This document shows, piece after piece, positions 3,356 to 14,515 of a DNA stretch of 64,000 bases. The number at the start of each line of letters is the position of its first letter. The stretch's first letter is position 1. The DNA comes from Nocardioides albertanoniae (GTDB lineage Bacteria; Actinomycetota; Actinomycetes; Propionibacteriales; Nocardioidaceae). The notes under the pieces were generated by a model. It did not search any database and had not been told where the DNA came from. It saw only the letters and a list, made by a program, of their open reading frames with translations. The stretch lies in assembly GCF_006716315.1 (NCBI RefSeq), contig NZ_VFOV01000001.1, positions 788,501 to 852,500 on the forward strand, written 5' to 3'. Position numbers and translations under genes: made by a program.

Positions 3356-5524
3356 CTACTTCTTGAAGACCTGCACGATCGAAGGCCGCGGACCCGCGAA
3401 CTCACCCTTGGCGGCGGTGCCGTCGACGTAGTCGGGGAACTGCGAGTGCTGGTCGTTCCAGGACCCGTCCTCGCCCGGGTGCTGCACGGCGACGAAGACC
3501 GAGCCGTCCTTGTCGTGGACGACCGGGCCGCAGGTCTCGGCCTCGCGCGGCACCGAGAGGAACTGCTGCACGTGGCCACGCTCGCGGCCCTCGAGCGGCA
3601 CCTTGAACAGACCGTCGCACAGGCCGATCGAGTCGGGCTGGCCGTCGGTGGAGATCCACAGGTTGCCCTCGGAGTCGAAGGCCAGGTTGTCCGGGCAGGA
3701 GATCGGGGAGACCTTGTCCTTCGGGTAGCCGGCGAAGTAGGTGCCTTCCGCGGTCGGGTCGCCGGCGACGATGACGAGGTTCCAGCGGAACACCCGGGAG
3801 GTGTGGTCGCCGTCGTCCTCGACGATCTCGACGATGTGACCGTCCTTGTTGGCGTTGCGGGGGTTGGGCTCGACGGGGCCGGCCTTGCCGTCCTTGCCGC
3901 GGTCGGTGTTGTTGGTGCACGCGACGTACACCTTGCCGGTCGTGGGGGAGGGCTGGACGTCCTCGCAGCGGTCCATCTTGGTGGCGCCGGCCTTGTCGGC
4001 GGCCAGGCGCGTGTGGACGAGCACCTCCTCGACGCTCATCCCGGACACCTTGCTGCGGCCGTTCTTCACCAGCGGGATCCACTGGCCGTAGCCGTCGAAC
4101 TTCCCGTCGCTGGGGAGCTTTCCGGTGCCGTCGATCTCGGCCTCGGGGGAGTCACCGTGGAAGCGGGCGACGTAGAGGTCGCCCTCGGTGAGGAGGTCGA
4201 GGTTCTTGCGACGGTTGTGCTTGTTGTAGCGCCCCTTGGAGACGAACTTGTAGAGGTAGTCGAAGCGCTCGTCGTCGCCGGTGTAGGCCACCACGTGGCC
4301 GCTGTCGGCGATCACCACGTTGGCGCCCTCGTGCTTGAGGCGGCCCAGCGAGGTGTGCTTCCGCGGCGTCGAGGTCGGGTCGGTCGGGTCGATCTCGACG
4401 ATGTAGCCGAACCGGTTCGGCTCGTTGGCGTAGTCGGGCGTACGCGCGTCGAACCGCGGCTCGATGGCCTCCCAGCCGTAGGACGACTCCCCGTCGCTCA
4501 GGCCGTAGCGCTTGCCCTCGGGAGCGGTGCCATCGGCGCGGAAGTAGCCGTTGAAGTTCTCCTCGCCCGAGAGGATCGTGCCCCAGGGGGTGGTGCCGCC
4601 GGAGCAGTTGCCGATCGTGCCGAGCGCGACGGTGCCGGTCGGGTCTGCCTTCGTCTTGAGCAGGTCGCTGCCGGCGGCGGGGCCGGTGATCTCGAACGGG
4701 GTGGAGGCGGTGATGCGCCGGTTCTTCGGAGCCGAGGGCACGTAGCTCCACTTCTCGCCCGGCGCCGAGCGCTCGAGCTCGACGATGGCGAAGCCGTGGG
4801 CGGCCATCGCGATCTTGAGCTGCTCCTCGGTGGCGAGGTCGGGCGGGAACATGATCTCGGCGTTGACGTACTCGTGGTTGCAGCACAGCAGGGCCTTGGT
4901 GCCGGCCCTGTTGGTCACGATGATGTCGGTGTAGTCGTTGTTGTAGCCGAACGCGAGCTCCTGCTTCGCGGCGCTCTGCGCGGCCACGTCGAAGGGCACG
5001 CCGCCGGGCAGGATCGGGTCGCCCCAGCGGATGATCGGCTCCCAGATGTAGCCCTGCGGCACCACGAAGGTGTCCTCGGTGGCGGCGACCGGCGTGATCG
5101 GCTTGAAGGGCAGCTTCGTACGCCCACCGTGACCGCCCGCGGCGAGCGCGCCGGCCTGGCCGGGGCTGGCGGCGGCAGGGGCCAGGCCGCTGCCGCCGAC
5201 GGCGAGCGCGACCGCACCGGCACCGGCGAGGCCCAACGCGTGACGACGGCTGAGCGCCTTGCCGGCGATGTCACGGAAGTAGCCGTTGTCGGAGGTGTTG
5301 GGCACCGGCTTGGCGCACGCGCTGTCGCACTTGAGCGCGCAGGTCACGGCGCTGCGCTTGCCGCTCGTGTGACCGGCCATCGGAAGCAGGGACAGCATGT
5401 TGCGTCGGCCGTTGGAGACTGCCGGCGCAGCGTGCTCGCTGCACGAGGGGCAGCCGGCGTCTGCCTGGAGGTCGGTCTGGAGATCGGCCTGGAGATCGTT
5501 GTGGGGGTCGCTCAGTTCGGTCAC
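3356..5524 (-). CDS. PhoX/DUF839-family alkaline phosphatase, Tat-exported
   Basis: A 722-residue protein of the PhoX (DUF839) family, whose studied members are calcium/iron-dependent extracellular phosphomonoesterases. A twin-arginine signal SRRHALGLAGAGAVALAVGG starts near residue 92. It is preceded by a long N-region with cysteines (CPSCSEH, TCALKCDSAC) and the VPNTSDNGYF block common in actinobacterial members. The body carries typical DUF839 motifs such as GEENFNGYF, DARTPDYANEPNRFGYIVEIDP, and CPDNLAFDSEGNLWISTDGQ. The chosen GTG (at 5524) starts MTELSDPHND; longer in-frame extensions upstream look non-coding. Short LQAD/LQTD repeats occur at residues 11-21. A PHO-box-like repeat set lies about 60-115 bp upstream, consistent with phosphate control. 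Confidence 0.88.
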   Translation of the reverse strand: MTELSDPHNDLQADLQTDLQADAGCPSCSEHAAPAVSNGRRNMLSLLPMAGHTSGKRSAVTCALKCDSACAKPVPNTSDNGYFRDIAGKALSRRHALGLAGAGAVALAVGGSGLAPAAASPGQAGALAAGGHGGRTKLPFKPITPVAATEDTFVVPQGYIWEPIIRWGDPILPGGVPFDVAAQSAAKQELAFGYNNDYTDIIVTNRAGTKALLCCNHEYVNAEIMFPPDLATEEQLKIAMAAHGFAIVELERSAPGEKWSYVPSAPKNRRITASTPFEITGPAAGSDLLKTKADPTGTVALGTIGNCSGGTTPWGTILSGEENFNGYFRADGTAPEGKRYGLSDGESSYGWEAIEPRFDARTPDYANEPNRFGYIVEIDPTDPTSTPRKHTSLGRLKHEGANVVIADSGHVVAYTGDDERFDYLYKFVSKGRYNKHNRRKNLDLLTEGDLYVARFHGDSPEAEIDGTGKLPSDGKFDGYGQWIPLVKNGRSKVSGMSVEEVLVHTRLAADKAGATKMDRCEDVQPSPTTGKVYVACTNNTDRGKDGKAGPVEPNPRNANKDGHIVEIVEDDGDHTSRVFRWNLVIVAGDPTAEGTYFAGYPKDKVSPISCPDNLAFDSEGNLWISTDGQPDSIGLCDGLFKVPLEGRERGHVQQFLSVPREAETCGPVVHDKDGSVFVAVQHPGEDGSWNDQHSQFPDYVDGTAAKGEFAGPRPSIVQVFKK

Positions 5525-12532: not shown

Positions 12533-12605
12533 TCGGCGTGGTTGGTCGGATGGGGTCGTGTGCGGGGTGCTGCGCTTCGTCTCGGCTGTCGTCGCGTGGG
12601 GCTGC

Positions 12606-12752
12606 TTGCCGCCGACCCGTACGCGGAGGGTGTTTCACGCCGGCACCCGGAGTAAAGGACGGCCTGCGGCCGCGGGCTTCGCCGGTCGCCTTCGGCGATC
12701 CTTGACACCGGGCGCCGGCGAGAATTTTGGCTGTCTATCGGGTCGGCGGCAG
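12606..12752 (-). repeat. Structured repeat copy A (left flank of DUF222-HNH gene)
   Basis: About 147 bp that, read on the minus strand, aligns with copy B at 14292-14444. The outermost 12 bp are perfectly complementary (12608-12619 with 12739-12750). An inner stem pairs 12638-12660 with 12699-12720. It encloses three contiguous 13-nt mini-hairpins at 12660-12672, 12673-12685 (one mismatch) and 12686-12698, with triloops of GAA/GCA read on the minus strand. The predicted fold is a cloverleaf on a long stalk. The orientation is outward from the HNH gene, as in copy B. Confidence 0.7.
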
Positions 12753-12850
12753 GGGTCTGGCGCGACATTTTGGGTCGGGTGCCGGGCTCGGGATGGGGGC
12801 AGGTCTGGCTGCCCGAGAGGGTGGTCGCGGGTCGCTGCACTAGACGATGA

Positions 12851-12874
12851 CGCTTTGTGAATCGTTCACAAGCG
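12851..12874 (-). terminator. Hairpin after the DUF222-HNH gene
   Basis: TTGTGAATCGTTCACAA, extended by CGCT/AGCG arms, forms a stem with a TCG loop 12 bp beyond the HNH stop. Confidence 0.5.
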
Positions 12875-12885
12875 GGCCGCCTGAT

Positions 12886-14160
12886 TCAGGGGCGTCGGGT
12901 GAACCGGATCGTTCCGTCGGGCAGTCGTTCATGGGTGAAACCGGGTGCGTGCGCCAACCGGTGATGGTGAGGGCAGAGCAGGACGCCGTCTTTGAGGTCG
13001 GTCTTCCCGCCGAGTGACCAGGGGGTCAGGTGGTGGGCGTCGCACCATTCGGGTGGCATGTCACACCCGTCGGCTTGGCAGCACTTCTGCTGCAACCGGA
13101 GTGCTTTGCGCTGGATCGGCTGGAAGAACCTGCTCGAACGACCCGCATCGAGGACTTGGCCGTCAGTGCCGAGCACCCAGGGGATGATCTGCGCGTTGCA
13201 GGCCATCTTCCGAGCCTCGGTCGCGCTGATCGTGGCGCCGTTGGTCTCGTCGAACCCGAGGATTGCGGTGCCGAGTTCTTTGCGGAGGTCGTCGAGCGAG
13301 ATGACTACGTTGATGGTGGTTGCGTCGCCGCCGTGGCGGGGCTGGGCATCGGGGTCGATGGTCTCCAGGAGGCGGGTGAAGGCCTGTCCCATGAGTCGTT
13401 CCCACGGGGGCAACGGGGTGCCCTTCTCAAGCAGTTGCTGCTTACGGGGCTGGGCCCAGGCTTCGACGTGGGTCTTGAACCGCATCCCGAGCGCGACCGG
13501 CAAGACGCCGTCGAATCCAACGGTGCCGTCGTGGTTGTCCCAGATCCGCAGTGCGGTCTTCTGTTGGGCACGTTCCTCTTCGGCCAGGAGGGCTTTGGCT
13601 TCGGCGTCTTCGAACCGTGCTGGGTCGATCTCGACGAGGATCCGCTTGCCCACGATCCGTAGTTCGTTGGCGGTCAGGCGGGTGGCGTAGTCGACCAACA
13701 GCTTCTCGGCGAGCAGCAGGTCTTCGGCGCTCGCGACGGGGTTGGCTTCGATCGCGTCCAAGGCTTTCGTGATCACTCTGGCTTTGTCGTGAGAGAGCAC
13801 GCCATCGGCAAGGCTGGCAGCGAGCAGTTCGTGCTTGGACATGGCGGCGGCGAGTTTGATCTGTGCGCGTGCCGTTCCTTTGTCGACGAGCAGGTCAGCC
13901 CGCATCCAGGCCGAGGCGTCCTTGTCGCCGGTCTCCTCAGCGATATCGCCAGCGGTGGCGAGGACGCGCAGCTCGAGTGCAGCCTGCTGCGCTTTGAGGT
14001 GCTGCAGCCGCGCGAGGACGTCCTTCTTCTGGCTTGTTCGCCAGTAGGCGGGGTCCATCGCGAGCAGGTCACCGAGAGCGTTTTCGATGCCAGCAAGAGC
14101 AGTCGCAACCGGGTCACGAGGGCTGGTGCCCCAGTGGTCGACGTAGTTCTCGACGCTCAT
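12886..14160 (-). CDS. DUF222 / HNH endonuclease-signature protein (REP13E12-like)
   Basis: A 424-residue protein with an all-helical DUF222 domain (residues about 20-330) and a C-terminal zinc-type HNH module: CCQADGCDMPPEWCDAHHLT, then a conserved LLCPHHHRLAH. These genes are multicopy in many actinobacteria; mycobacterial REP13E12 repeats are the best-known relatives. Their biological role is unproven. The start ATG has a perfect AGGAGG 7 nt upstream. Codon third positions look less G+C-rich than in neighbours, which suggests separate acquisition. Inverted structured repeats lie on both sides (12606-12752 and 14292-14444), so the gene may sit inside a mobile or formerly mobile unit. Confidence 0.88.
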   Translation of the reverse strand: MSVENYVDHWGTSPRDPVATALAGIENALGDLLAMDPAYWRTSQKKDVLARLQHLKAQQAALELRVLATAGDIAEETGDKDASAWMRADLLVDKGTARAQIKLAAAMSKHELLAASLADGVLSHDKARVITKALDAIEANPVASAEDLLLAEKLLVDYATRLTANELRIVGKRILVEIDPARFEDAEAKALLAEEERAQQKTALRIWDNHDGTVGFDGVLPVALGMRFKTHVEAWAQPRKQQLLEKGTPLPPWERLMGQAFTRLLETIDPDAQPRHGGDATTINVVISLDDLRKELGTAILGFDETNGATISATEARKMACNAQIIPWVLGTDGQVLDAGRSSRFFQPIQRKALRLQQKCCQADGCDMPPEWCDAHHLTPWSLGGKTDLKDGVLLCPHHHRLAHAPGFTHERLPDGTIRFTRRP

Positions 14161-14200
14161 TGCTGACCTCCTCTCGAGGTGCCTGTCAAGTACCCTTCAT

Positions 14201-14223
14201 TTTACTCTTTACCGACGAGTAAA
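14201..14223. promoter_or_regulatory. Inverted repeat TTTACTC-N9-GAGTAAA upstream of the HNH gene
   Basis: Perfect 7-bp arms, A+T-rich against a G+C-rich background, 41 bp upstream of the HNH start. It could be an operator or part of the promoter. Confidence 0.4.
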
Positions 14224-14291
14224 TCCATCTATTTCCGCAGGTCAAACCATGTTTTGCGGCAGCGAATCAACAGTTTTTCCTCCCGGCCACA

Positions 14292-14444
14292 CCCTGGCCG
14301 CCGCCCCGATAATCAGCCAAATCTTTCTCGACCTGGGTCCGGTGTCCAGGACCACCGAAGGTGGCCGGCGAAGCCGGCGGCCGAAGGCCGTCCTTGACTC
14401 CGGTCCAGGTCGAGAGACCCTCACGAACGGGTCGGCGGCCAAGG
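14292..14444 (+). repeat. Structured repeat copy B (right flank of DUF222-HNH gene)
   Basis: 153 bp. An outer stem pairs 14292-14308 with 14428-14444 (15 of 17). An inner imperfect stem of about 26 bp pairs roughly 14326-14351 with 14391-14416. Three contiguous 13-nt hairpins lie at 14352-14364, 14365-14377 and 14378-14390, each a 5-bp stem with a GAA loop. Relative to copy A, the first hairpin and the inner stem differ in sequence but keep pairing. It lies before the start of the next gene and contains no evident coding capacity. Confidence 0.7.
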
Positions 14445-14515
14445 CCAGCCCAAAGAACGAGCATCCCCGGCAGGGAGCCCACACCCCACCCACCCCCATA
14501 GGAGACAATCCAGAC

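Follow-up and report, generated by a model that had tools for sequence, protein, structure and literature searches.

A gene of the DUF222-HNH family on the 4.97 Mb chromosome of Nocardioides albertanoniae is bracketed by two repeats, which raises the question of whether these repeats fold, whether they are the ends of a mobile unit, and whether the HNH protein acts on them. The gene and its surroundings were analyzed within a stretch of 64,000 nucleotides (the window, positions 788,501-852,500 of the chromosome, to which all coordinates below refer unless another locus is named).

Layout of the element and its gene

The initial annotation had described two inverted, outward-facing repeats around the HNH gene, and such a pair was confirmed, each repeat being 143 bp long (12608-12750 and 14297-14439). 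Comparison with the corresponding site in two genomes without the insert (G010 and G014) gives approximate limits of 12539-14478 for the inserted segment, i.e., it extends past the cloverleafs on both sides. The R-type end lies downstream of the gene (12608-12750, outward strand minus) and the L-type end upstream of it (14297-14439, outward strand plus), both assignments being based on alignment, folding, and covariation. The foot of the R end is a perfect stem of 11 bp (GCCGCCGACCC/GGGTCGGCGGC, minus strand, within 12608-12750) and its hairpins occupy 12686-12698, 12673-12685 (one mismatch), and 12660-12672 on the minus strand; those of the L end are located at 14352-14364, 14365-14377, and 14378-14390 on the plus strand, all with a GAA loop and a C-G closing pair. 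In the L end, the arm facing the gene additionally contains a conserved unpaired box, GATAATCAGCCAAATC (14308-14323, plus strand), several columns of which are invariant or nearly so in the alignment of the ends, and the same alignment identifies GATAGACAGCCAAAAT (12724-12739, minus strand) as its R-end counterpart. A box resembling it was also recognized by eye in distant relatives (L116, L277-L280).

Outside the repeats, the empty-site comparison assigns to the insert an R-side outer tail (12539-12607, minus strand) and an L-side outer tail (14440-14478, plus strand), the latter including CCGGCAGGGAG. Just beyond the upstream end, the repeat GTCTCGACAAGCTCGACCACCGG or similar GGTCTCGACACG forms were seen in 10 of the 12 tails of relatives that were printed (L071, L072, L074, L075, L076, L077, L079, L089, L092, and L095). 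In N. albus, two upstream cloverleafs are arranged in tandem before one gene (4247-4389 and 4642-4784 of L072). Between the gene and the R end, an internal dyad, CTTTGTGAATCGTTCACAAG (12853-12872), was noticed by eye, as it was in most copies of this genome that retain the downstream region. It is related to GTGAACGAAAATTCGTTCAC-like dyads, which recur in the interior of several of the miniature copies described below (L139-L146) and are possible candidates for protein-binding sites.

The gene (12886-14160, minus strand) encodes a protein of 424 aa that is assigned to the DUF222-HNH family by homology. According to the alignment, its HNH motif (residues 361-404, with C361, C366, H376-H377, C396, H400, and H404; 12949-13080, minus strand) is intact, and the motif residues are invariant among 20 aligned homologues. 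Searched singly against Pfam, the window protein yielded sub-threshold HNH matches, with HNH_2 just below the cut-off (E 6e-4), and no match to the DUF222 profile. DUF222 was matched by 17 of the 20 aligned family members at E 0.01 and, in the genome profile search, by 4 of the 16 copies of this genome. The Pfam content of the window protein and 19 homologues consists of HNH, HNH_2, and DUF222 and nothing else; the known transposase gene that characterizes a classical insertion sequence was thus not found inside the element by this search. Among solved structures, the HNH domain matched Cas8f-HNH fusions (E 3e-4), McrA (8e-4), and a group II intron maturase (0.013), with IscB behind these three (0.077); in NCBIfam, the HNH domain of one homologue (L248) showed similarity to IscB at E 0.0011. 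An AlphaFold2 model built from 25 close sequences reached a pLDDT of 51.6 and was unusable. For 11 copies of this genome without stops, dN/dS ranged from 0.07 to 0.27 in 55 pairs (median 0.16). Relatives sharing the gene are Nocardioides YR527, N. albus, N. turkmenicus, N. luteus, and a metagenome bin.

Fold, covariation, and loops of the ends

For both window repeats and both strands of each, folding with RNA energies gave z values of -7.2 to -8.7 and folding with DNA energies values of -5.3 to -7.0, and none of 200 dinucleotide shuffles folded as well in either case. Three separate hairpins were predicted in none of the four RNA folds, three of which form a long rod, and in three of the four DNA folds. 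Across a set of 62 ends, all three hairpins appeared on the outward strand in 16 and on the inward strand in 11 with RNA energies, and in 33 and 50, respectively, with DNA energies. By folding energy alone the exact shape is less certain; comparison supports separate hairpins, since the consensus fold has them and their pairing covaries.

This comparison covered 62 ends (61 distinct), 24 from this genome and 38 from relatives (several Nocardioides genomes). The claim that pairing is kept while both strands of the stems change was borne out: 96.1% of cells were paired (89.6% after shuffling), 180 cells were doubly changed (59.5), and 15 pairs contained double changes (9.3), values not reached by any of 500 shuffles. 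Slid controls remained at or below 47.7% paired and 65 doubly changed cells. Hairpins 1 and 3 and the inner stem contain most of the double changes; the structure pairs 51-134 and 52-133 lack pairing in 24 and 28 of 61 ends. A search against Rfam at gathering scores matched the ends to no family and yielded three tRNAs as the only hits in the window, so that an assignment of the ends to a known Rfam RNA family was rejected. Averaged over the eight full copies of this genome, identity amounts to 90-91% in the ends, 85% in the coding sequence, 73-79% in the spacers, and 53-63% in the outer tails, with 63.5% at fourfold sites (seven of the eight copies). As the ends exceed all of these other parts, they are either strongly constrained or homogenized.

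The three contiguous hairpins with GAA-type loops that had been read from the two window repeats recur in the consensus fold. On the outward strand, approximately 183 of 186 loops read G-N-A or, rarely, G-NN-A, with N being free. When loops are counted by alignment column, 179 of 186 fit, and of the seven misses four are column shifts reading GAA, the others being GAT (once) and GAC (twice). The closing pair, likewise counted by column, is C-G in 61 of 61, 59 of 59, and 59 of 61 rows for the three hairpins. In the triloops the middle base is A in 109 cases, T in 29, C in 25, and G in 6, and six of the ten four-base loops are non-GNRA. Twelve of 13 distant ends taken were framed. A script picked 34 hairpins in them, some third hairpins wrongly, and 28 of these are C-G-closed with a G-N-A or G-NN-A loop. 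In the distant single end L116 (genome G060), one CTTG loop adjoins a GAA loop; CTTG is described as the second loop type at Streptomyces telomeres, some of which have stems capped by GNA loops (PMC7205883).

Triloops of the d(GNA) type with a C-G closing pair are described as a stable DNA hairpin motif (PMC5815330), and the GNA form sits at the 3′ end of the element on each DNA strand. Loop identity in the aligned ends favors the outward strand, because the G-N-A loops are read there. Folding energy picks neither strand nor polymer, as the outward strand is better for 34 of 62 ends with DNA energies and for 30 of 62 with RNA energies. With DNA energies, three hairpins form more often on the inward than on the outward strand (50 vs. 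33), which runs contrary to the strand choice made from the GNA loops, and a GNA loop is compatible with RNA, too, i.e., it does not exclude that polymer.

Copies, empty sites, and gene-less units

The genome of N. albertanoniae contains 16 dispersed copies of the gene, 12 of them free of internal stops; of the other four, one has a TAG and three are broken. A BLAST search with one repeat, complemented by a covariance model, identified 24 full-length repeats, of which 15 are L ends upstream of the gene and 9 are R ends downstream of it; this number leaves out BLAST matches of 16-30 bases at other places in the genome (E up to 0.6). Each of the 24 is located no more than 600 bp from a gene copy, with 0.19 expected to be so. 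A full R end accompanies 9 of the 16 copies of this genome and 7 of 35 loci of the named relatives; the upstream end is full at 30 of these 35 loci and partial at two, and two contigs start within the gene. With 94% identity to its closest relative in this genome, the window protein gives no sign of a very recent jump.

Comparison of occupied and empty sites, as proposed with the initial annotation, revealed empty counterparts for each of three inserts. For the window copy, the neighboring gene was matched in 4 of 39 genomes (its own, one weak match, G010, and G014), and in G010 and G014 approximately 17-20 nt separate the response-regulator stop codon from the hydrolase leader, a distance of about 1.94 kb in the window. 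The site of a further copy (E06) is empty in all five relatives, with 18-22 bp between the flanks compared to approximately 1,990 bp in N. albertanoniae, and a miniature copy of G085 is absent from the matching N. albertanoniae site (54 bp vs. 627). At these three sites the elements lie between genes, the inserts overshoot the cloverleafs by about 38-100 bp, and the intergenic flanks have diverged so far that neither exact junctions nor a target-site duplication could be placed.

The miniature copies comprise eight gene-less end pairs in G065 and G085 (L139-L146), with ends 160-270 bp apart. By eye, each pair consists of one L-like and one R-like end (L139 being mixed) plus short stretches of the inner flanks. 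They are dispersed and align end to end while their flanks are unrelated, as is known from MITEs. Two of the eight, L140 and L146, are orthologous, and L139 has one flank in common with L144 and one with L145, which leaves about six independent sites. The flank sharing of L139 with L144 and L145, and a swap of flanks between species at L064 and L065 versus L080 and L099, look as if chromosomes had been rearranged via recombination of element copies. The dispersed gene copies, the linkage of all 24 ends to the gene, the empty sites, and the miniatures together support the proposal that the cloverleaf repeats are the ends of a mobile unit.

The accompanying expectation that such ends keep to DUF222 genes held for N. 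albertanoniae and failed in part elsewhere. Among the ends listed for G085, 8 of 22 are located at a gene, 8 in gene-less pairs, and 6 are single; among those listed for G052, 19 of 40 have a gene at a distance of 600 bp or less, and of the other 21, 6 have one within 2.6 kb. Distant forms of the ends extend beyond the HNH gene, with matches in at least 10 of the 78 genus genomes and, among the matches listed, in 8 of 147 from the order (N. albertanoniae counted in both). Genome G091 contains repeated gene-less units and a single DUF222 match without such an end, and five genomes of two other families contain one related end each among the matches listed. No DUF222 partner was seen at the related ends of these six genomes among the loci inspected; one of them (L277, from another family) has two ORFs of at least 130 aa, neither of which is an HNH protein by eye.

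Of 118 genomes sampled across the class, 90 contain DUF222 genes, with up to 21 matches in one genome. A search for a comparable flanking pair at 30 distant DUF222 loci (one per genome) yielded none and a single 31-bp match; this test, in which some flanks were short, is blind to one-ended units, and of its controls the two-ended ones were found and L160, with an upstream end only, was missed. The covariance model likewise detected no ends at five distant Nocardioides DUF222 loci (L164-L166, L172, and L173; genomes G008, G070, and G091). In nine upstream regions of subfamilies with 33-46% identity, no three-hairpin core was recognized by eye, and other palindromes were present.

Pairwise comparison of the elements, like the unlinked ends and the distant loci above, is at odds with a simple two-ended transposon. 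In 87 of 149 non-orthologous pairs with at least 84% identity, homology ends within 10 nt of the stop codon. Of the 12 pairs sharing at least 90% identity, 11 behave in this way; by origin, the numbers are 72 of 96 pairs among relatives and 15 of 53 within N. albertanoniae, where 38 of 53 pairs show homology into or through the R region. Because homology often stops near the stop codon, the R cloverleaf looks dispensable for spread, and the split in where pairwise homology stops points to what look like two kinds of unit, the first extending past the R cloverleaf before it ends and the second finishing at the stop codon.

In G052, seven copies of the gene are interrupted by an IS110-family element (Pfam DEDD_Tnp_IS110), which at L148, L149, L151, and L152 occupies the same position within the HNH motif codons. 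As the IS110 elements are 100% identical in the four copies compared while the HNH gene parts differ by 6-10%, they were inserted separately, and the interrupted copies were rejected as proof of spread with a dead HNH domain. Repeated site-specific insertion into a multicopy target is suggested instead. The split-off 3′ part of the HNH gene contains an in-frame TGA in all seven interrupted copies listed. Carriage by phages, plasmids, or viruses was also rejected: the best plasmid match reached 70% coverage and 30% identity, one plasmid match bore the name “13E12 repeat family protein”, one weak phage match was found, searches of viral contigs by protein or box pattern gave no hit, and no plasmid bearing a miniature copy was detected.

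Possible mechanisms and relation to known systems

Our best explanation, for which we see an even chance, is that the window copy is a chromosomal, transposon-like, HNH-encoding element of approximately 1.9-2.0 kb with hairpin ends, an end of which is folded while single-stranded and then recognized and nicked by the DUF222-HNH protein. An end would turn single-stranded on the lagging strand, during repair, or by cruciform extrusion, and would then form the foot stem, the inner stem, and a set of three hairpins of the C(GNA)G type, leaving the box GATA(G/A)CCAGCCAAA unpaired. The DUF222 part may recognize this folded end in cis or in trans and the HNH part may nick close to the foot or within the outer tail, after which the freed unit would be pasted or copied into intergenic DNA. 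What the data show are the linkage of ends and gene, the constraint on both, the empty sites, the gene-less copies, and the lack of a Y1 transposase match in ten genomes; the single-stranded substrate, the nicking, and the protein as mover are what we infer. The proposal of the initial annotation that the repeats may be substrates of the HNH protein is based on their co-occurrence with the gene and on this lack of Y1 matches.

The main alternative is a mover encoded elsewhere, i.e., another enzyme would move the element in trans, and the HNH gene would be a passenger or a retention nuclease in the way that TnpB or IscB accompany IS200/IS605 elements. The gene-less miniatures, G091, and the copies in other families, where ends can spread or be maintained with no HNH gene next to them, are in line with such a mover, as is the presumed movement of REPINs by RAYTs in trans (PMC3116915). 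Against this, Y1_Tnp (PF01797), the transposase class searched, matched none of ten element-bearing or related genomes, with matches in 5 of 14 control genomes, so that mobilization by a resident Y1 enzyme was rejected for the ten genomes; moreover, no other gene common to the element interiors was seen and every end in N. albertanoniae is at the HNH gene. A mover in trans appears possible, though rather unlikely. HNH enzymes are common homing endonucleases, and a homing-type unit, whose enzyme would cut double-stranded DNA at the cloverleaf or the empty site, with the cloverleafs as recognition sites and spread by repair and gene conversion, would agree with the frequent stop of homology at the stop codon instead of the R end. 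Frequent gene conversion of REP13E12 has been described for M. tuberculosis (PMC13061034). Homing, however, needs a homologous target, and the empty sites that were read show no cloverleaf or obvious element sequence, which makes this mode of spread improbable.

It is also very doubtful that the ends function as RNA, either as outward transcripts or as a gene leader with a regulatory or guide-like role. Both strands fold well with RNA energies, the C(GNA)G loops are compatible with RNA, and the HNH domain is IscB-like by sequence, although Cas8f-HNH and McrA score better; yet the ends match no Rfam family at gathering scores, the 20 homologues gave no RuvC match in a profile search, most four-base loops are non-GNRA, three hairpins are rarer with RNA than with DNA energies, and the fold occurs inverted at both ends and also in gene-less copies. 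That the repeats are ordinary extragenic palindromes or terminators near genes by chance would fit the intergenic position of the elements at the three sites read, but is hardly credible, and contradicted in N. albertanoniae, in view of 24 of 24 ends at the gene instead of 0.19 expected, the distinct L and R types, and the empty sites.

In comparison to known systems, the DUF222-HNH element is functionally most like the REPIN-RAYT pair. In both cases, extragenic palindromic units form inverted pairs with predicted single-strand folds, including a clover form, occur as singlets and doublets, and exist without the gene, such units being presumed to be moved in trans in the case of REPINs (PMC3116915). 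Inverted pairs of hairpin-forming ends, shared with REPIN/RAYT and IS200/IS605, were found here; the Y1 (HUH) transposase, the defining test of REPIN/RAYT, was not found in the ten genomes, its place being taken by an HNH nuclease. RAYTs are furthermore described as single-copy (PMC3116915), whereas the HNH gene is multicopy inside the elements, and the ends here are 143 bp long with three hairpins. Under our best explanation, the element would be, by analogy, an HNH counterpart of the REPIN-RAYT pair. Like MITEs, its short gene-less dispersed copies share both ends with the gene-bearing element, but these ends are cloverleaf-capable instead of simple terminal repeats, and no target-site duplication was seen at junctions that could not be placed. 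IscB/OMEGA systems, too, have structured DNA upstream of their mobile gene, which encodes an HNH protein. The weak HNH similarity adds to this likeness, while the present element differs in having no RuvC match beside HNH (20 homologues), no Y1 transposase, and the fold at each of its two ends. With Streptomyces telomeres (PMC7205883), the ends share runs of stems capped by GNA loops and, once, in the G060 end, CTTG; the comparison covered the hairpins, and the element ends are chromosome-internal.

The 13E12/REP13E12 repeats of mycobacteria and other actinobacteria share the protein family by homology and are likewise multicopy. REP13E12/HNH/DUF222 is listed among the repetitive elements behind mobile-element signals (PMC10589994), and a preprint describes the REP13E12 repeats as gene-conversion hot spots with an undefined biological function (PMC13061034). 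In contrast to the element studied here, no structured ends are described for these repeats in the literature searched, the mycobacterial ones having been compared by description, nor was any report of structured ends at DUF222-HNH genes found there. We tentatively propose, as a reading with less than even chances, a new class of bacterial mobile element that is mobilized by a DUF222-HNH nuclease. The nuclease would act on cloverleaf ends that are single-stranded and, with their C(GNA)G hairpins, telomere-like, and would also move the gene-less copies in trans; extended to all DUF222-HNH (13E12) proteins, this reading would make the family one of transposase-like or replicator-like nucleases. 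With a well-defined candidate DNA substrate, empty sites, and gene-less copies as a natural reporter, the role of this family becomes testable. Should the HNH protein prove to be the mover, HNH nucleases would count among the enzymes capable of driving DNA transposition on their own, and GNA cloverleafs would connect transposon ends with telomere-like structures.
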